From NCBI RefSeq assembly GCF_001536285.1, contig NZ_FAOZ01000013.1, forward strand, positions 62,001 to 126,000: a stretch of DNA of 64,000 nucleotides, given 5' to 3'. The notes under the pieces were generated by a model. It was not told where the DNA came from. It made no database searches and was given only the letters and a program-made list of their open reading frames with translations. Position 1 is the stretch's first letter, and each line of letters starts with the position of its first letter. The translations under genes and the position numbers were made by a program. Source of the stretch: Parafrankia irregularis. GTDB lineage: Bacteria; Actinomycetota; Actinomycetes; Frankiales; Frankiaceae. This document shows positions 6,949 through 42,201 of this stretch, piece after piece.

Positions 6949-7869
6949 ATGTCTGCCATGTGCAGGTCCCGTGTCACCCGCTCGTTGATCGTCCTGCCTG
7001 CGCTGGTCGGGATGGCGCTGGTGGGGGCCTGCGGATCGGACAGTCCAGCGGCCACCGGCCCGGCACCGTCGCCGTCGGCGCCCGTGTCGACGACGACGGC
7101 CCCGGCGCCGGCGACGCCGAGCGGCCTGAGCGGCCCGGCCTCCCCCGCGGGCACCCCGAGCGCGTCGGCGACCGCAGGGGCGACACCGACGGCGTCCCCG
7201 GCGCCCACGGCGTCCCCGACGGCGACCTCGGCCGGGACGACGCCGTCACCAGCGCCGACGCCGACCGGCCCGCCGATCCTGCGGCCCGGCGCGACCGGCC
7301 CGGAGATCCTGGAGCTGCAGCGGCAGCTGATGGCGGCCGGCTACTGGCTGGGCACCCCGGACGGCACGTTCGGCCTGCTCACCCAGCAGGCGGTGCTCGC
7401 CGTGCAGAAGACCGCCGGCATCGGGCTGGACGGGCTGGTCGGGCCGGCCACCCGAGCCGCGATCGCCCGCGGCACGCGGCCGGACGCACGCAGCACGCAG
7501 GGCTTCGTCCTGGAGGTCGACAAGGGCCGGCAGCTGCTGAAGATCGTGCGGGACGGACACGTCGAGACCACGCTCAACACCTCGACCGGCACCGAGCAGA
7601 TCTACTACCACGACGGCGTCCAGTACCTGGCCGACACCCCGCCCGGCACCTGGCGGATGTTCCGCCAGGTCAACGGGGTCGACCACGGCAGCCTCGGCGA
7701 CCTCTACCGGCCGAAGTACTTCCACGCCGACGGCATCGCCATCCACGGGTACGCCTCGGTCCCGGCCCGGGCCGCCTCGCACGGCTGCGTCCGGGTGACC
7801 AACGCCGCGATGGACTGGCTGTGGTCGTCGGGCAACGCCGAGATCGGCACCACCGTCCTGGTCTACTGA
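6949..7869 (+). CDS. L,D-transpeptidase lipoprotein with peptidoglycan-binding domain
   Basis: A 306-residue secreted enzyme predicted to form 3-3 crosslinks in peptidoglycan. The N-terminus is a lipoprotein signal with lipobox LVGAC (Cys near residue 28), followed by a Pro/Ala/Thr/Ser-rich linker to about residue 105. A PG_binding_1 domain (GATGPEILELQRQLMAAGYW to LVGPATRAAI) follows. The C-terminal YkuD domain carries the catalytic signature: IAIHGYAS, then ASHGCVRVTNAAM with the nucleophile Cys. The start is uncertain between ATG 6949 and ATG 6958. An AT-rich GAATAAATCT just before the start could be a -10 box for a leaderless mRNA. Confidence 0.92.
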   Translation: MSAMCRSRVTRSLIVLPALVGMALVGACGSDSPAATGPAPSPSAPVSTTTAPAPATPSGLSGPASPAGTPSASATAGATPTASPAPTASPTATSAGTTPSPAPTPTGPPILRPGATGPEILELQRQLMAAGYWLGTPDGTFGLLTQQAVLAVQKTAGIGLDGLVGPATRAAIARGTRPDARSTQGFVLEVDKGRQLLKIVRDGHVETTLNTSTGTEQIYYHDGVQYLADTPPGTWRMFRQVNGVDHGSLGDLYRPKYFHADGIAIHGYASVPARAASHGCVRVTNAAMDWLWSSGNAEIGTTVLVY

Positions 7870-7870
7870 C

Positions 7871-7920
7871 GGCCGGTCCGCTGACGGCCGGTCCGCTGAC
7901 GGCCGGTCCGCTGACGGCCG
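7871..7920. repeat. 15-bp tandem repeat after the L,D-transpeptidase gene
   Basis: Three perfect copies of GGCCGGTCCGCTGAC plus a 5-base partial copy begin one base after the TGA stop. Each unit ends in TGA, so the array adds stop codons in the same frame. It lies between convergent genes. Confidence 0.9.
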
Positions 7921-7963
7921 GAGGCGGCGGGCCGTGCCAGATCGTGGTCGCGCGACCTGCCGC

Positions 7964-8329
7964 TCAGGTGGACAGGCAGGTGTAGTGGGCGACGACCTTG
8001 GCGATCAGGCCGTCGGCGTCGACGAACAGGACGTCGGCGACGAGCCGGCCACCTACACCCCGCATGTAGATCAGGATGCTGTCGAGGCCGCGCATGACGT
8101 CGACGATCTCGAACCGCAGGTCGGGGTTCGCGGCGAGGGCGGTCTCGAAATAGGTGCGTGCCTCGCCCCGGCCCCGCACCAGGTTGCTGCCGACGAGCTT
8201 CTCGGCGAGCGGGGAGACGAATTCGACGTCCGCGCTGTACAGGGCGAGGATCCGGTCGAGATCACGCGTGTTCCAGACCGCGATGTGGTGCTCGGCGAAC
8301 TCGACTGCGCTCTTCTCCGTCCACGGCAT
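7964..8329 (-). CDS. SnoaL-like / NTF2-fold protein
   Basis: A 121-residue single-domain protein of the NTF2-like superfamily. It shows the typical N-terminal helix and strand pattern (FAEHHIAVWNTRDLDRILAL, then YSADVEFVSPLA), VRGRGEARTYFETAL in the middle, and C-terminal beta strands ending HYTCLST. Members are ketosteroid isomerase- or SnoaL-like cyclases, or binding proteins, and no catalytic residue lets me choose. It is convergent with the L,D-transpeptidase. A 15-bp triplicate repeat lies just upstream of its ATG. Confidence 0.75.
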   Translation of the reverse strand: MPWTEKSAVEFAEHHIAVWNTRDLDRILALYSADVEFVSPLAEKLVGSNLVRGRGEARTYFETALAANPDLRFEIVDVMRGLDSILIYMRGVGGRLVADVLFVDADGLIAKVVAHYTCLST

Positions 8330-8355
8330 GCCGGCAGTCTCTCCTCTTTCGTGCC

Positions 8356-8400
8356 GCGGCGGTCCGCGGTGCGGCGGTCCGCGGTGCGGCGGTCCACGGT
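8356..8400. repeat. 15-bp tandem repeat upstream of the SnoaL-like gene
   Basis: Three consecutive copies of GCGGCGGTCCGCGGT occur, the third with one change (CCACGG). The array lies in the divergent region between the SnoaL-like gene and the DUF2252 gene, within 30-70 bases of the SnoaL-like start, so it could affect its promoter. Confidence 0.9.
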
Positions 8401-8584
8401 GCGCGTCCGGCGATCTCGGCGGAGGTGTCGGGTGGGGCGCGGGTCACGGCGGGTCCCGGGCCAGCGCACGTGCCGGCGGGCGCTGGCATGCTGGGACGGG
8501 CGACGCGCGGCCACCACGCGCGGCCCACGCCGGAAGTCGCGCGACGACGCGATGACGCGATCACGTGAGAGGGAGCCACAGCGC

Positions 8585-9898
8585 ATGACGACGTCCGCTG
8601 CCGGTGCCGACCGTGCCCAGGTGATCGGGGACGTGTTCGGGGCGGCCTTCGGTGAGCTGATGGCCGCGGAGCCCGGTGCCTTCCGCCGCAAGTTCCGGAA
8701 GATGGCAGCCTCGCCGTTCGCCTTCTACCGGGGTTCGGCCGCGCTGTTCTACACCGATATCAACGGCCTGGACGACCCTTTCCTGAACGAGCGGACGAGC
8801 CGGGTCTGGATTCACGGTGATCTGCATGCGGAGAACTTCGGCACCTACATGAGCAGCAACGGCGTGCTCGTGTTCAACGTCAACGACTTCGACGAGGCGT
8901 ACGTCGGGCCGTTCACCTGGGACCTGCGCCGCCTGGTGGCGAGCCTCGCCCTGCTCGGCCGGGCGAAGGCGCTCAGCGACGCCGTCATCACCGACCTGGT
9001 CGAGGCGTGCGTCGGCGCCTACCAGGAGAAGATCCGCGTCCTCGCCGAGGGCGGCTCGTCCGCAGACCTGCTGACCCGGACGTCCACCGAGGGTGTGGTG
9101 CACGCCTTCCTGCAGACCGCGCGGCGCGCCACCCGGGTCGCCCTGCTCGACGAGCTGACCGTGGTCGAGAACTACGACCGCCGTTTCGCCCACGTCGACG
9201 GCGTCAGCGCGGTGGACGACGAGACACGCGCGAAGGTCATCGCCGCCTTCGACCGCTACCTGGCGACGGTGCCGCCGGGCCGGCGCACGCGCCCGGTGGA
9301 GCTGACGGTGAAGGATGTCGTGCTGCGGCGCGGGGTGGGTATCGGCAGTGCCGGGCTGCCGTCCTACAGCATCCTCGTCGAGGGACACACCGAGGCACTG
9401 GACAACGACGTAGTCCTGTACATGAAGCAGGCGCAGAGCCCGGCGGTGAGCAGGTTCGTCCCCGACGAACGGATCGCCGGCTACTTCCACCACCAGGGGC
9501 ACCGCACCGCGGTGTCACAGCGGGCGCTGCAGGCCGACAGCGACTCCTGGCTGGGCTACTCCGAGCTGGACGGGATCGGCCAGCTCGTCGCCGAGGTCTC
9601 CCCGTACGCCCAGGACCTCGACTGGTCCGAGGTCAACGAGCGCGACGAGATGCTGGGCCTGGTCGCCGACCTCGGCCGGTCGACCGCCCGGATGCACGCG
9701 GTCGCCGACGACGAGAGCGACCACGACCTGGTGAGCTTCTCCACCGAGGACGCCATCCACGAGGCGATCTCGGCGGACCCGAAGGGGTTCACCCTCGCCA
9801 TGGTCGAGTTCGCCCACGACTACGGAGCCCAGGTCCACCGCGACCACGCCCTGTTCGTCGACATGTTCCGCAACGGCCAGCTCATCGACGTCGACTGA
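8585..9898 (+). CDS. DUF2252 family protein
   Basis: A 437-residue cytoplasmic protein of the DUF2252 family, which has a kinase-like fold. It begins near RKFRKMAASPFAFYRGSAAL. WIHGDLHAENFG resembles the H-x-D of aminoglycoside phosphotransferase-like kinases, and NVNDFDEAYVGPFTWDLRRL supplies a D-x-D-like metal site. The C-terminal half carries GVGIGSAGLPSY and a long helical region. The reaction is unknown; phosphotransfer is an inference from the fold. ATG 8585 follows GAGAGGGAGCC at good spacing, so the long upstream extension of the frame is not used. It nearly abuts the convergent WYL gene (8 bases). Confidence 0.85.
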   Translation: MTTSAAGADRAQVIGDVFGAAFGELMAAEPGAFRRKFRKMAASPFAFYRGSAALFYTDINGLDDPFLNERTSRVWIHGDLHAENFGTYMSSNGVLVFNVNDFDEAYVGPFTWDLRRLVASLALLGRAKALSDAVITDLVEACVGAYQEKIRVLAEGGSSADLLTRTSTEGVVHAFLQTARRATRVALLDELTVVENYDRRFAHVDGVSAVDDETRAKVIAAFDRYLATVPPGRRTRPVELTVKDVVLRRGVGIGSAGLPSYSILVEGHTEALDNDVVLYMKQAQSPAVSRFVPDERIAGYFHHQGHRTAVSQRALQADSDSWLGYSELDGIGQLVAEVSPYAQDLDWSEVNERDEMLGLVADLGRSTARMHAVADDESDHDLVSFSTEDAIHEAISADPKGFTLAMVEFAHDYGAQVHRDHALFVDMFRNGQLIDVD

Positions 9899-9906
9899 GC
9901 CTGCCG

Positions 9907-11082
9907 TCAGCACCATGGCGTCGCGACGACCGGGCTCCGGCCCTCCCATGGCCTGGCGGCGTAGAGGGCCGTGAGGTCCGCCGCGGCCGCGGCCATCGCC
10001 TCGCGCAGCTCCGGCGGGTCCAGGACCTCCACCTCGGCGCCGAGGACGAGCAGGTCACCACGGGCGTGCCGGATCGACTCGATCGGCAGCCGCGCGCGGA
10101 CCCATCCGTCTACGTCCGGCTCCTGCGCCGTGCTCCGCAGGGACCTCACCACCGCGGGTGCGAGCCGGAAAGGTGCCATCCGCAGTCCTTCCGGGGAGAG
10201 CCGCACCGTGGCCGTCGCCCGGTAGACACTCGCCTCGTAACGGGCCGTCCACCCGGCCCAGTAGTCCGCGAGATCGAAATCATCCGGACGAGGGAAGGTG
10301 CCCGGCAGCGTCTCCAGGTGGTGAATCTTCCCGACCCGGTAGACCCGGACGCCATCCCCCGCATCCGCGGCAGGCTCGGCCGCGGCGGCGGCCCCGGCAG
10401 GCTCGGCCCCGTCCTCGGCCTCGACCTTGGCCGCCGCCGCCGCGGTCGCGGTCGCGGTCGCGGTCGCGGTCGCGGTCGCGGTCGCGGTCGCGGTCGCGGT
10501 CGCGGTCGCGGTCGCGGTCGCGGCGACCAGGTACCAGGTACCGCTCTTGAGGACGACGCCGAGCGGCCTTACGTCCCGCACCACCCCCTGGGGGGAGCGC
10601 CAGCGCAGGTAGGTGAGCCGCAGCGGGCGGCACTCCCAGACCGCCCCGGCCACCTCGGCCAGGTGCGGCACGGGTTCGACGTCCCGGAACCAGCCCGGCG
10701 CGTCGAGGTGGAACAGGCGGCGGGCGTGCTGCGCCCGCCGCCGGTTGCCGGACGGGAGCGCGGCGAGCAGTTTGCGTTCGACGGCGGCCGCGCCCGGGCC
10801 GAAGCCGAGCGCCTCGGCGGCCGCGGGGAGCCCGGCCAGCGGCAGCGAGTCCGACTCGCCGGCGGTCAGGCCTGTCAGGCTGGTGCGATAGCCGCCCAGC
10901 AGCCGGTAGCCGCCGGCCGACCCGCGCTCGGCCACCACCGGGAAGCCGGCCCCGGCGAGCGACTCCACATCCCGGTAGACGGTGCGGACCGACACCGCCA
11001 GCTCGTCGGCGATCTCCCGGGCTGTCAGCCGCCCCCGTGCCTGCAGCAGGAGCAGGACCGAGAGCAGGCGATCGGCGCGCAC
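9907..11082 (-). CDS. WYL-domain (YafY-type) transcriptional regulator
   Basis: A 391-residue regulator. The N-terminal HTH_11 domain (residues 1-60) reads LTAREIADELAVSVRTVYRD, followed by the family-typical ERGSAGGYRLLGGYR. The WYL domain (about residues 140-330) is interrupted after LKSGTWYLVAAT by an (Ala-Thr)n tract from a hexanucleotide microsatellite and then by an Ala/Glu-rich stretch. The domain resumes at VYRVGKIHHLETLPGTF. A C-terminal WCX-like region ends the protein. It is divergent from a VOC gene, and a perfect 14+14 inverted repeat lies between them. Autoregulation and control of the VOC gene are likely. GTG at 11082 is the start that begins directly with the HTH. Confidence 0.9.
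   Translation of the reverse strand: MRADRLLSVLLLLQARGRLTAREIADELAVSVRTVYRDVESLAGAGFPVVAERGSAGGYRLLGGYRTSLTGLTAGESDSLPLAGLPAAAEALGFGPGAAAVERKLLAALPSGNRRRAQHARRLFHLDAPGWFRDVEPVPHLAEVAGAVWECRPLRLTYLRWRSPQGVVRDVRPLGVVLKSGTWYLVAATATATATATATATATATATATATATAAAAAKVEAEDGAEPAGAAAAAEPAADAGDGVRVYRVGKIHHLETLPGTFPRPDDFDLADYWAGWTARYEASVYRATATVRLSPEGLRMAPFRLAPAVVRSLRSTAQEPDVDGWVRARLPIESIRHARGDLLVLGAEVEVLDPPELREAMAAAAADLTALYAARPWEGRSPVVATPWC
10441..10520. repeat. hexanucleotide microsatellite inside the WYL gene
   Basis: Thirteen perfect tandem copies of CGCGGT and a partial copy. On the coding (minus) strand they encode alternating Ala and Thr in the middle of the ligand-binding WYL domain. Unit gain or loss keeps the frame, so length variants would change linker length without killing the gene. 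Confidence 0.95.
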
Positions 11083-11096
11083 CGGCCCATCATCCG

Positions 11097-11131
11097 CCGC
11101 GATACCTGACAGAGGAAGTCAGGTATCGCGG
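11097..11131. promoter_or_regulatory. probable WYL-regulator operator, perfect inverted repeat
   Basis: The arms CCGCGATACCTGAC (11097-11110) and GTCAGGTATCGCGG (11118-11131) are exact reverse complements over 14 bp, separated by AGAGGAA. The site lies 15 bases upstream of the WYL gene start and 85 bases upstream of the VOC start. Position and symmetry suggest a shared operator for both genes. Confidence 0.75.
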
Positions 11132-11216: not shown

Positions 11217-11639
11217 TTGAGCGAAGAGCCTGGACCGGTGGGGACAGCGACGACGTCCGCTGGCGTGAGCTGGGCGGGGCTGATGCTGGACTGCCCCGAC
11301 GCGAAGGCCCTGGCGGAGTTCTACGGCGAGCTGACAGGCTGGGGCGTCGCCGGCGCCGACGAGGCGGGCGCGTGGGCCTATCTGACGCCTCCGGGCACCG
11401 AAGTGATGATCGGCTTCCAGCGGGTGGAGGGCTACCAGCCGCCCCGGTGGCCGGACCAGTCCGCCCCGCAGCAGTTCCATCTCGACTTCCGGGTCACGGA
11501 CCTGGCGGCTTCGCTTGAGCTGGCCGAGAAGCTCGGCGCGACGCAGGCCGAGTTCCAGCCGGGCGGGGAACGCTGGCGGGTGCTGCTCGACCCGGTCGGC
11601 CACCCGTTCTGCCTCTGCCCCCCGGCGCCTTCGGCCTGA
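11217..11639 (+). CDS. VOC (glyoxalase/bleomycin resistance) family protein
   Basis: A 140-residue protein of the vicinal oxygen chelate superfamily. It has one betaalphabeta3 module (WAGLMLDCPDAKALAEFYGE) and a second from FHLDFRVTDLAASLELAEKL to RVLLDPVGHPFCLCPP. Such actinobacterial proteins are usually annotated glyoxalase-like. The metal ligands and substrate are not certain. TTG at 11217 follows AAGAGAGGCG at good spacing, though GTG at 11238 is possible. It is divergent from the WYL regulator and probably its target; WYL-VOC pairs are common in actinobacteria. Confidence 0.8.
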   Translation: MSEEPGPVGTATTSAGVSWAGLMLDCPDAKALAEFYGELTGWGVAGADEAGAWAYLTPPGTEVMIGFQRVEGYQPPRWPDQSAPQQFHLDFRVTDLAASLELAEKLGATQAEFQPGGERWRVLLDPVGHPFCLCPPAPSA

Positions 11640-39506: not shown

Positions 39507-40340
39507 TCAGGCCCGGGTGGAGGAGACGAACTCCAGCAGGTCGGTGCTCAGCCGTTCCCGGAAGGTGACGGCCAGGCCGTGCGGACCGCCCTCGTACACC
39601 TTGAGCGTGGCGTCCTTGATCAGCTCCGCCGAGCGCTTCCCGCCGACCTCGAAGGGAACCACCTGGTCGTCGTCGCCATGGATGACGAGGGTCGGCACGT
39701 CGAACGCGGCCAGGTCCGGCCGGAAGTCCGTCGCCGAGAAGGCGGCCACGCACTCGTAGGAGCTGCGCAGGCTGGACTGCATGCCCTGGGCCCAGAAGGA
39801 GTCACGGGCCCCCTGCGAGACGTTGCTGCCGGGCCGGTTCGCGCCGAAGAACGGGCCGTCGGCGAACTCGCGGTAGGCCTGGGCGCGGTCGTTGACCAGG
39901 CTGGTGCGGATCCCGTCGAAGACCTCGATCGGCAGGCCCTCGGGGTTGTCGTCCGTCCGCAGCATGAACGGCGGCACCGCGGAGACCAGCGCGACCTGCG
40001 CCACCCGGAACGTGCCGTGCCGGCCGACGTAGCGGGTCACCTCTCCCCCGCCCATCGAGAACCCGACCAGCGTCACGTCGTGCAGATCGAGGTGGTCGAT
40101 CAGGGTCGAGAGGTCGTCGGCGAAGGTGTCCATGTCGTTGCCGTCCCACGGCTGCGACGAACGGCCGTGCCCGCGGCGGTCATGCGCGACGACGCGGTAG
40201 CCGTGGGCCGCGAGCGCGGCCGCCTGGGACTCCCAGCTGTCCGCGTTCAGCGGCCAGCCGTGGCTCAGTACCACGGGACGCCCCGTGCCCCAGTCCTTGT
40301 AGTAGATCTCGGTTCCGTCCTGCGTCGTCACGGCCGCCAC
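39507..40340 (-). CDS. alpha/beta hydrolase, non-heme haloperoxidase type
   Basis: A 277-residue alpha/beta hydrolase closely resembling cofactor-free chloroperoxidases/perhydrolases. It shows [15 protein letters not shown] (oxyanion), [13 protein letters not shown], the nucleophile elbow GFSMGGGEV (Ser near residue 97), [11 protein letters not shown] (acid) and [11 protein letters not shown] (His). The family makes peracids and can halogenate or hydrolyse esters in vitro. The physiological substrate is unknown. GTG at 40340 follows AGAAGGGGACG. A 10-bp tandem array lies upstream of its promoter region. Confidence 0.92.
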
Positions 40341-40450
40341 GATCGTCCCCTTCTCCGCGTGGGTGGGTGGGGGTTACCTCCCCCTCTCTCACGCTAGGCC
40401 CGCCCACGGGAGAACGCGCACCGATCAGGCACCGGCCGACACCGTTCGGG

Positions 40451-40560
40451 CGAGGCCCGGCGAGGCCCGGCGAGGCCCGGCGAGGCCCGGCGAGGCCCGG
40501 CGAGGCCCGGCGAGGCCCGGCGAGGCCCGGCGAGGCCCGGCGAGGCCCGGCGAGGCCCGG
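40451..40560. repeat. perfect 10-bp tandem array, 11 copies
   Basis: CGAGGCCCGG is repeated exactly 11 times without a mismatch. It lies between the DGAT gene's stop and the haloperoxidase-type gene's start. The 10-bp period is close to one helical turn. Confidence 0.97.
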
Positions 40561-40602
40561 CCGGCGGCTGCGCGGGCAGCCGCCGGCCGGCTCAGGCGGC
40601 TG

Positions 40603-42201
40603 TCAGGCCGCGGCGGGCCGGCGGCGCCACGGCCGGAGCAGGCCGCCGGGATCGCGGGCGACCACGCCCGTCACCGCTCCCGAGACGGCACCGCTGACGG
40701 TGCCGGTCATCATCGCCGTCACCGCGGCCGCGGCGGTGGGCAGGCGCTGGGCCGGCACGCTGACCCGGGCCCGCGGGGCGCAGTCACGCAGCGCGGCGAG
40801 CTCGTCCAGCCACAGCTGCGCGAACCGGTCGTGGTTCGGCACGCTGTCGCTGGCGACGACCATGACGCCGACCCGGTCGTCGACACCGAACATCGCCACG
40901 GCCAGATGCTGGCGCCCGACCAGCAGCGGGCCCATGCCGATCAGGCCGGTCATCCGCCGGCCGGCGACGGACAGCGGGCCGCGGATGGTCCGCGCGTTGG
41001 TCGCGACCAGCGCCATCTTGCTGATCTGGGTCGGGTAGCTGCCGACACTCGCGAGCATGCGCTTGCTGGCGAACCGCGCCATGGCCGGGAAGTGGGCCCG
41101 CTCCACCAGGCCGAGGCCGCCCTTCTTCATCCGCGCGGTCGCCTCGGCTGTCCGGGCGAGGCGCCGGGCCGGGTCGGGCTCGCCGCAGTACAGCGGAACC
41201 CGCACCCCGGTGTTGAAGTTCGACAGGACGTCCTGCTCGGCCAGCGTGCGGATGCTCACCGGCATGAGCGCGTGGACGGGGCGTGACCCGCTCTCCCAGT
41301 CGGCCGGTGACCAGGCGCGCAGCGCGCCGGCGACCGCGGCGAGGTACACGTCGTTCACGGTCACCCCGTGCTGGCGGGCGATCGACCGCAGGGTGCTCAG
41401 CTCGGTGGTGACCCAGCTGTGCCGCGCGGGGCCGGACGGCGGGCCGCCCCAGCCGGCGAGGCGGCGGGTCGGCAGCAGGCAGCCGATGCCGCGGCTGACG
41501 AACTTCGCGTACTCGACCGGGCGGGGGCGGCGGATCGTCTCCGGCAGGCCCAGGTCGATCCGGTCGCTCTCCCCGAAGAGCAGGTACATGACGCGGTAGA
41601 GCGCCATCCCGTCCTGCTGGATGTGGCTGGAGCGGTAGACCATCGCCGTCCGGGTCGCCGCCGGGTCCGGGTCGCGAAGCAGGTAGAGCATCCACGGCGG
41701 CCGGGTCATGTCGACGGGCCGGCTGACGATGCTGTCGACGGCCGCCTGCAGCCGGGCGTCACCGAAGCCCGGGTCCCCGCCGGTGCGTGCGTCGGCGGCG
41801 GCGCCTTCCCCTGCGCCGGCACCGGAGTCGACACCCGCGTCGGCACACGCGTCGGCGGGAGGCAGGTCGACGACGACGATGTGGTGGTCGAGGTCCACCC
41901 CGGGGTCGGAGACCCAGCGGGTCTCCTTCGCCGAGGATCCCCGCTCGGGCGACCAGATCGTCACGGTCTCCAGCCGGTCGGTCAGCATTCGCGCCCGCGG
42001 GTCGCGCAGCCGTTCGGCGATGTGCGCCCGCAGCTCGTCGATGCCCACCTGGGGACCGTCGAAGAACAGCAGGGCGCCGATGTCCTGGTGCTCCCCCGGA
42101 TTGCGGTCGACGAACGCGAGATACGCCCGGTCGCCGGGGGTCAGCGGGCGCACGTGCGCCGGCGTGTAGTCGGTCTTCCTGAGCGCGCCGAGCAGAGCCA
42201 T
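40603..42201 (-). CDS. wax ester synthase/diacylglycerol acyltransferase
   Basis: A 532-residue member of the WS/DGAT family, which makes triacylglycerol or wax ester storage lipids from acyl-CoA. The active-site motif normally reads H-H-x-x-x-D-G. Here it is SSHIQQDG near residue 205, so the first His is Ser while the second, catalytic His and the Asp-Gly are kept. Other family motifs are RPPWMLYLL, the NDVYLAAVAGALR segment, and SNFNTGVRVPLY. An Ala/Gly/Asp-rich insert of about 30 residues lies before the motif. ATG at 42201 has a GGGGGAGCG site. The first-His loss occurs in some natural paralogs, so activity is uncertain. Confidence 0.88.
   Translation of the reverse strand: MALLGALRKTDYTPAHVRPLTPGDRAYLAFVDRNPGEHQDIGALLFFDGPQVGIDELRAHIAERLRDPRARMLTDRLETVTIWSPERGSSAKETRWVSDPGVDLDHHIVVVDLPPADACADAGVDSGAGAGEGAAADARTGGDPGFGDARLQAAVDSIVSRPVDMTRPPWMLYLLRDPDPAATRTAMVYRSSHIQQDGMALYRVMYLLFGESDRIDLGLPETIRRPRPVEYAKFVSRGIGCLLPTRRLAGWGGPPSGPARHSWVTTELSTLRSIARQHGVTVNDVYLAAVAGALRAWSPADWESGSRPVHALMPVSIRTLAEQDVLSNFNTGVRVPLYCGEPDPARRLARTAEATARMKKGGLGLVERAHFPAMARFASKRMLASVGSYPTQISKMALVATNARTIRGPLSVAGRRMTGLIGMGPLLVGRQHLAVAMFGVDDRVGVMVVASDSVPNHDRFAQLWLDELAALRDCAPRARVSVPAQRLPTAAAAVTAMMTGTVSGAVSGAVTGVVARDPGGLLRPWRRRPAAA

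Follow-up and report, generated by a model that had tools for sequence, protein, structure and literature searches.

The window, which is the whole stretch of 64,000 nucleotides of Parafrankia irregularis DNA that was analysed, contains a perfect hexanucleotide array inside the gene of a predicted transcriptional regulator, next to a palindrome and a divergent glyoxalase-like gene. The features at this locus are:

9907..11082, minus strand: HTH_11-WYL-WCX transcriptional regulator, 391 aa (ORF, Pfam, Foldseek)
10324..10347, minus strand: RVYRVGKI motif, residues 246-253 (HMMER alignment to M. smegmatis PafB)
10348..10521, minus strand: 58-aa loop, residues 188-245, (AT)13 and then an acidic stretch rich in Ala (AlphaFold2 model, loop comparison)
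10441..10523, minus strand: perfect hexanucleotide array of 13.83 units (CGCGGT on the plus strand, GCGACC on the minus strand), encoding (Ala-Thr)13 (Tandem Repeats Finder, direct scan)
11097..11131, no strand: 35-bp palindrome CCGCGATACCTGAC-N7-GTCAGGTATCGCGG, with 14-bp arms and a 7-bp spacer; candidate operator (sequence)
11217..11639, plus strand: divergent glyoxalase-like gene, PF18029 Glyoxalase_6, start codon approximate (Pfam E 3.5e-25)

Tandem Repeats Finder reports the array at 100% matches, and a direct scan resolves its 83 bp (10441-10523) into 13 perfect CGCGGT units plus five bases, or 13.83 units. The preliminary description of this DNA had placed its end at 10520; the perfect array in a WYL regulator is there as described, but it extends to 10523. 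The host gene lies on the minus strand, where the unit reads GCG ACC (Ala-Thr), and residues 188-213 are the thirteen Ala-Thr pairs of the ladder that had been proposed. The reading frame, which a 6-bp unit was expected to preserve, is intact throughout the ORF (9907-11082, GTG start, 391 aa). Long plus-strand ORFs across the array are taken to be by-products of the GC-rich repeat, since the conserved domains sit in the minus-strand frame. With perfect units of 1-6 bp extending well beyond chance, the array is a coding microsatellite.

The regulator carries an HTH_11 domain (E = 1.5e-15), a WYL domain (1.8e-13) and a WCX domain (4.1e-15), all above the curated Pfam cut-offs. This architecture, an N-terminal HTH followed by WYL and WCX, fits a PafBC/DriD-type WYL transcription factor, and the top PDB hits, both by fold (Foldseek) and by profile, are DriD and PafBC. 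Full-length TM-scores are low (about 0.3), owing to domain placement and the loop, and it is Pfam, E-values and residue alignment that identify the protein as WYL; a search of NCBIfam with the regulator assigned no family. The array was earlier said to lie in the middle of the WYL domain. By position this is right, as Pfam aligns only positions 1-51 of the 70 in the WYL profile ahead of the insertion; structurally, the array is an insertion into an inter-strand loop.

How unusual is such an array in this genome? Dinucleotide shuffles contain a mean of 0.01 matches to a four-unit pattern with up to three mismatches, whereas the real sequence has 12 that overlap, all in the one array. Within the whole genome (9,536,211 bp, 82 contigs), the only run of at least four perfect CGCGGT units is that at 10441-10523, which rules out a genome-wide repeat family. 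In a 464-kb sample of the genome, made up of the window and twenty chosen (not random) 20-kb stretches, its 83 bp make it the longest perfect 6-bp array, followed by one of 42 bp. Across all periods from 1 to 40 in the same sample, it ranks second among perfect arrays, behind one of 113 bp, with a 10-bp unit, which is likewise in the window. This longer array (GGCGAGGCCC x 11.3, 40449-40561) lies beyond the end of a WS/DGAT-like ORF (40603-42201, minus strand) and ahead of an alpha/beta-hydrolase ORF (39507-40340, minus strand), in the gap that separates them, and could possibly serve as a length-variable spacer or leader. A perfect 15-bp array (CTGACGGCCGGTCCG x 3.7) occupies 7866-7921, upstream of the longest ORF with a DUF2252 domain (7934-9898); the domain begins only at residue 247 of that ORF, so the gene itself may start later than the ORF does.

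The genome is a draft of 82 contigs, in which the length of a repeat could have been collapsed or expanded during assembly. Against such an artefact, the frame is intact through the whole gene and a related array occupies the same position in the sister species. An array of 83 bp is also shorter than ordinary sequencing reads, and we regard this explanation as very improbable.

The beta3/beta4 loop in Frankiaceae orthologues

In the AlphaFold2 model (29 aligned sequences as input; mean pLDDT 79, pTM 0.62), the loop is placed between the WYL strands beta3 (182-189) and beta4 (245-249), and residues 193-241 are the only stretch of at least three residues with pLDDT under 50. Because of these strand positions and this single low-scoring stretch, the array is predicted to fall in a disordered loop that links beta3, the strand with the WYL residues, to beta4. 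A position inside the fold core is ruled out by the model. A homologue from a Chloroflexi-labelled MAG (L065) has a long Gly/Thr/Ala-rich insertion in another loop, in the WCX part, so other loops of the WYL protein can also accept low-complexity insertions.

Close relatives of the gene, defined by a match to its N-terminal 162 residues with E up to 1e-40, are present in 18 of the 35 family genomes: six of six in the window's genus, 11 of 13 in a second genus (g5) and one of eight in a third (g6). The long beta3/beta4 loop is found in all 18, with lengths of 15, 15, 24, 24, 24, 29, 31, 31, 33, 33, 33, 36, 37, 49, 50, 56, 57 and 58 aa; one of them (L018) ends after the loop at a contig end, and a partial match in G027 (L022), whose loop was read as 15 aa, is excluded from these counts. 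In 25 homologues from outside the family, taken from records whose titles name neither Frankia nor Parafrankia, the same site has 4-11 residues, and exactly six in 19 of the 25. The genome itself contains seven WYL matches, one of which is the gene itself and one (L114) unreadable by motif; the remaining five paralogues have 8, 8, 8, 8 and 11 residues at the site, which rules out a long loop as a general trait of WYL paralogues.

Nine of the 18 loops contain perfect in-frame tandem repeats of at least 24 nt, in 1.8 to 13.5 copies. Three have a 6-bp unit (GCGACC, GCGACG and, in G032, GCCACC), three a 9-bp unit and three an 18-bp unit; the scan covered periods 4-24, with multiples of three not built in, and only 6, 9 and 18 turned up. 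The remainder of the same genes (17,535 nt) yields one array (12-bp, L009), and none of 3600 length-matched segments from before the loop has any. After codon shuffling, a mean of 0.42 and a maximum of 3 of the 18 loops contain an array, and none of 500 shuffles reaches 9, which rules out chance low complexity as the source. In these sequences, the recurring feature is the site and not the unit, namely a repeat-prone loop by the sensing motif in every family orthologue examined.

The same comparison bears on the idea that the array acts as a DNA or RNA structure or binding site, with the peptide being incidental. The repeat is indeed perfect at the nucleotide level. However, unit sequence and length vary among orthologues while site and reading frame are constant, which points to the protein position, and the genome offers no second run of at least four such units; of all the readings considered here, this one is the least credible.

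The putative ssDNA motif, loop charge and the gene neighbourhood

Alignment by HMMER with M. smegmatis PafB (chain 7p5x_AY) pairs Y184, R246, R249 and K252 of the regulator with Y196, R208, R211 and R214, respectively, and places PafB R204 within the aligned loop. The regulator thereby carries the conserved ligand residues of the PafBC/DriD type (the WYL tyrosine and the RxYRxxR arginines). W183, Y184 and R249 are invariant in all 29 rows of the alignment, which represent 29 of 31 possible rows after L051 (stops in range) and L070 (low similarity) were left out. The third motif arginine of PafB is a lysine here (K252); 18 of the 29 rows have Arg at this position, and the others Lys, Ala, Gln or Asn. 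At the end of the loop of L002 (G002) there is a small tandem duplication, RVYRVYRVG, copying part of the ssDNA-motif strand.

For PafB, the substitutions R211A/R214A, Y196A, R181A and R181A/R204A/R208A are each described as abolishing ssDNA binding, and R181, R204 and R208 as forming a basic patch at the groove entrance (PMC11804915). In SiwR, R204/R207 are reported to be required for ssDNA binding and induction (PMC10693628), and by their spacing these would be the same pair as the PafB motif pair. In a published description of WYL proteins, the WYL residues belong to beta3, and those that face the ligand to the beta4/beta5 loop (PMC6789036). By alignment, the loop adjoins residues that bind ssDNA in PafB. 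The regulator resembles PafBC/DriD in its WYL-WCX architecture, its fold and its tyrosine/arginine ssDNA motif, here by sequence (PMC6789036, PMC11804915), but the beta3/beta4 loop of M. smegmatis PafB has 8 residues by the same count that gives 58 in the regulator.

Could the disordered loop itself be under selection, as an acidic gate that electrostatically screens the ssDNA site in the manner of the acidic tails of Hfq? The net charge is acidic in 16 of the 18 loops, neutral in two and positive in none, and the nine perfect units are all read in an Arg/Lys-free frame (P = 0.0004 under random forward frames, a post hoc value for units that are partly related). PafB R204, a member of the groove-entrance patch, falls within the loop. 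WYL is described as an Sm-like fold (PMC6789036), and Hfq is reported to be autoregulated by its acidic C-terminal domains (PMC5606850), so both cases would have an acidic, disordered appendage of an Sm-like fold close to where nucleic acid binds. They differ in that the Hfq appendage is a terminal tail with reported regulation (PMC5606850), whereas here it is a beta3/beta4 loop for which regulation is proposed. Moreover, loop charge spans 0 to -12, and the loop of L007 has no charged residue. The acidity may also be generic to disordered linkers in these genomes, the loops having been considered on their own. Nor does the motif prove ssDNA binding here, since PafBC needs the arginine pair of PafB and not the corresponding pair of PafC, which is described as dispensable for ssDNA binding (PMC11804915). 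A selected gate of this kind seems unlikely.

The loop also shows other signs of constraint. The loop of G032, from another genus, also has an Ala-Thr repeat but with different codons: 35 of its 37 codons are ACN or GCN, 8 of these 35 lack C at the third position, and GGG and CCA end the loop. The third-position differences hint at constraint at the protein level. Imperfect repeat copies in L006 contain Lys and Arg. Taken from the sequences, the charge and frame data suggest that selection acts on the composition of the loop, or does no more than exclude basic versions of it.

The 35-bp palindrome at 11097-11131 stands upstream of the regulator. In each of the 18 family orthologues, 12-16 of the 16 arm positions of its 23-bp core are matched, each score being that of the best place in 250 bases, without a shuffled control. 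The distance from core to start codon is 19-21 bp in 14 of the 18, 41 in L003 and L011, 39 in L010 and 6 in L013. Among 17 further loci, three from Streptomyces (L048, L055 and L058) score 16/16 and the other 14 score 8-14. The palindrome is offered as a candidate operator of a wider WYL regulator group, and the divergent PF18029 gene is a probable regulated neighbour.

This arrangement recalls the WYL regulator SiwR of Mycobacterium smegmatis, for which PF18029 genes are reported beside siwR in some Actinobacteria, together with a 19-bp imperfect palindrome (PMC10693628). PF18029 or a DinB-superfamily gene would mark a SiwR-type neighbourhood, and the former is found in the divergent gene here. 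Here too a conserved palindrome lies between the regulator and its neighbour, and it may be a counterpart of the SiwR one, the comparison being with the description and not the letters (PMC10693628). On the other hand, the neighbours of SiwR in M. smegmatis itself are DinB-superfamily genes, and the available text of that report mentions no repeat loop in SiwR (PMC10693628). Since the PF18029 neighbour and the palindrome resemble the published SiwR locus, it is a reasonable guess, by analogy, that the regulator is SiwR-like and responds to genotoxic stress.

Repeat turnover and the repair background

The closest named relative found is Parafrankia sp. EUN1f (G001, L041), Parafrankia belonging to the Frankiaceae. 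The two proteins are 94.6% identical outside the loop, and their loops measure 58 aa in P. irregularis and 31 aa in EUN1f. The EUN1f loop opens with two GCGACC units common to both species and continues with a homogenised GCGACG run of 5.5 units, for which copying of a mutated unit is the best explanation, in place of independent substitutions. The variant base repeated in successive units thus points to slippage turnover. The preliminary description had assumed that the array mutates by slippage, and between species this is the mutational account that fits best, given the two shared units followed by homogenised GCGACG, the differing units and the loop lengths of 15-58 aa. The refuting condition named in that description, a copy number that is the same across strains, is contradicted at the level of species only.

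Turnover also shows in the distribution of units on the core tree. Counted against other array-bearing rows only, the Ala-Thr label needs two changes, which well-supported branches force, and a single ancestral Ala-Thr array is ruled out within this set of rows. The 9-bp label likewise needs two changes, and the 18-bp label is compatible with one origin. Turnover is not uniformly fast, since L014 and L015 have identical loops at 95.4% identity outside the loop.

In the window's genus, a profile search finds NucS_C in six of six genomes and a MutS_I domain in none of the six; the control for MutS_I gave matches in 11 of 14 named genomes. The search covered these two domains. Two NucS_C matches in the P. 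irregularis genome exceed the cut-off, a strong one and a weaker one that lies in a longer open frame (G000:C69:1644-1985, G000:C7:243942-244220), and EUN1f has a similar pair. Short indels are reported to escape correction by NucS in M. smegmatis and C. glutamicum, and DnaE proofreading has been suggested to remove most short indels in Actinobacteria (PMC8228993), so the absence of MutS need not mean that the array is unstable. Bacterial genomes are described as having, on average, no enrichment in short tandem repeats (PMC12699852).

Two published hexamer repeats provide a comparison. The GCTGGC repeat of Salmonella mutL is, like the array, an in-frame hexamer that encodes a dipeptide repeat beside a ligand pocket (a predicted one in the regulator), and it changes by slipped-strand mispairing, as the array probably does; it differs in having three units (LALALA) against 13.8, and the loss of one unit is reported experimentally to inactivate MutL (PMC2955026). 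For the array, lengths are compared between species only. The GACATC repeat of Mycobacterium leprae rpoT is likewise an actinobacterial hexamer with varying copy number, but with 3 or 4 copies, at a locus called non-coding, and with documented variation among strains (PMC4545183). Literature searches on Frankia microsatellites, on WYL proteins together with Frankia and on in-frame repeats in actinobacterial regulators listed no title on such a repeat.

Does array length set the sensitivity of the regulator? In such a contingency locus, slippage would yield differing set-points on which selection could act; the preliminary description had envisaged length variants that might tune the regulator. 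The loop connects a WYL strand with the counterpart of the ssDNA-binding motif of PafB (Y184, R246, R249 and K252 being the aligned residues), copy number differs between the sister species, and in Salmonella a single unit of the Leu-Ala hexamer, in the lid of the MutL ATP pocket, is reported to switch function (PMC2955026). However, perfect arrays of at least 24 nt are missing from nine of the 18 orthologues, so array instability is not conserved. Changes by 6 bp would also alter length in graded steps, with no frame shift and no on/off switch. We consider tuning by array length unlikely, if a little less so than a selected acidic gate.

A probably tolerated, repeat-prone site

The explanation we consider probable is that slippage keeps renewing a tolerated, weakly constrained disordered loop, with selection for frame and non-basic composition. 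The array would be one lineage's present filling of a repeat-prone disordered beta3/beta4 loop in a Frankiaceae WYL regulator, in which replication slippage may repeatedly expand, contract and replace short in-frame repeats. Such slippage is probably left uncorrected, these bacteria having NucS and no MutS, and selection would purge frame-shifting and strongly basic loops and otherwise tolerate length and sequence. We infer that slippage is the mutational mechanism in the loop, that loop length is nearly neutral and, by analogy with mycobacterial and corynebacterial data, that indel repair is lacking in this organism.

The hypervariability and predicted disorder of the loop fit tolerance as well as tuning, and the position of the loop by the ssDNA motif is the reason why the tuning and gate readings merit direct test. 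A combination of the two is conceivable but doubtful: a slippage-driven 'length dial', in which an acidic or neutral disordered gate would by its length set how much ssDNA is needed to trigger a WYL stress regulator. It is just as speculative that such a gate sits at the mouth of the ssDNA site and has been rebuilt repeatedly from different in-frame repeats in the Frankiaceae.

The locus brings together one defined loop by a nucleic-acid-sensing motif, different in-frame repeats in separate lineages, and a genus without MutS_I. The 18 orthologues, with loops of 15-58 residues in otherwise alignable proteins, form a natural series for asking whether the length of a disordered loop tunes a bacterial sensor, and the same series suits the measurement of hexamer-array evolution under NucS repair. 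Even if length proves irrelevant, the loop would be a clear example of a tolerated repeat-prone site.
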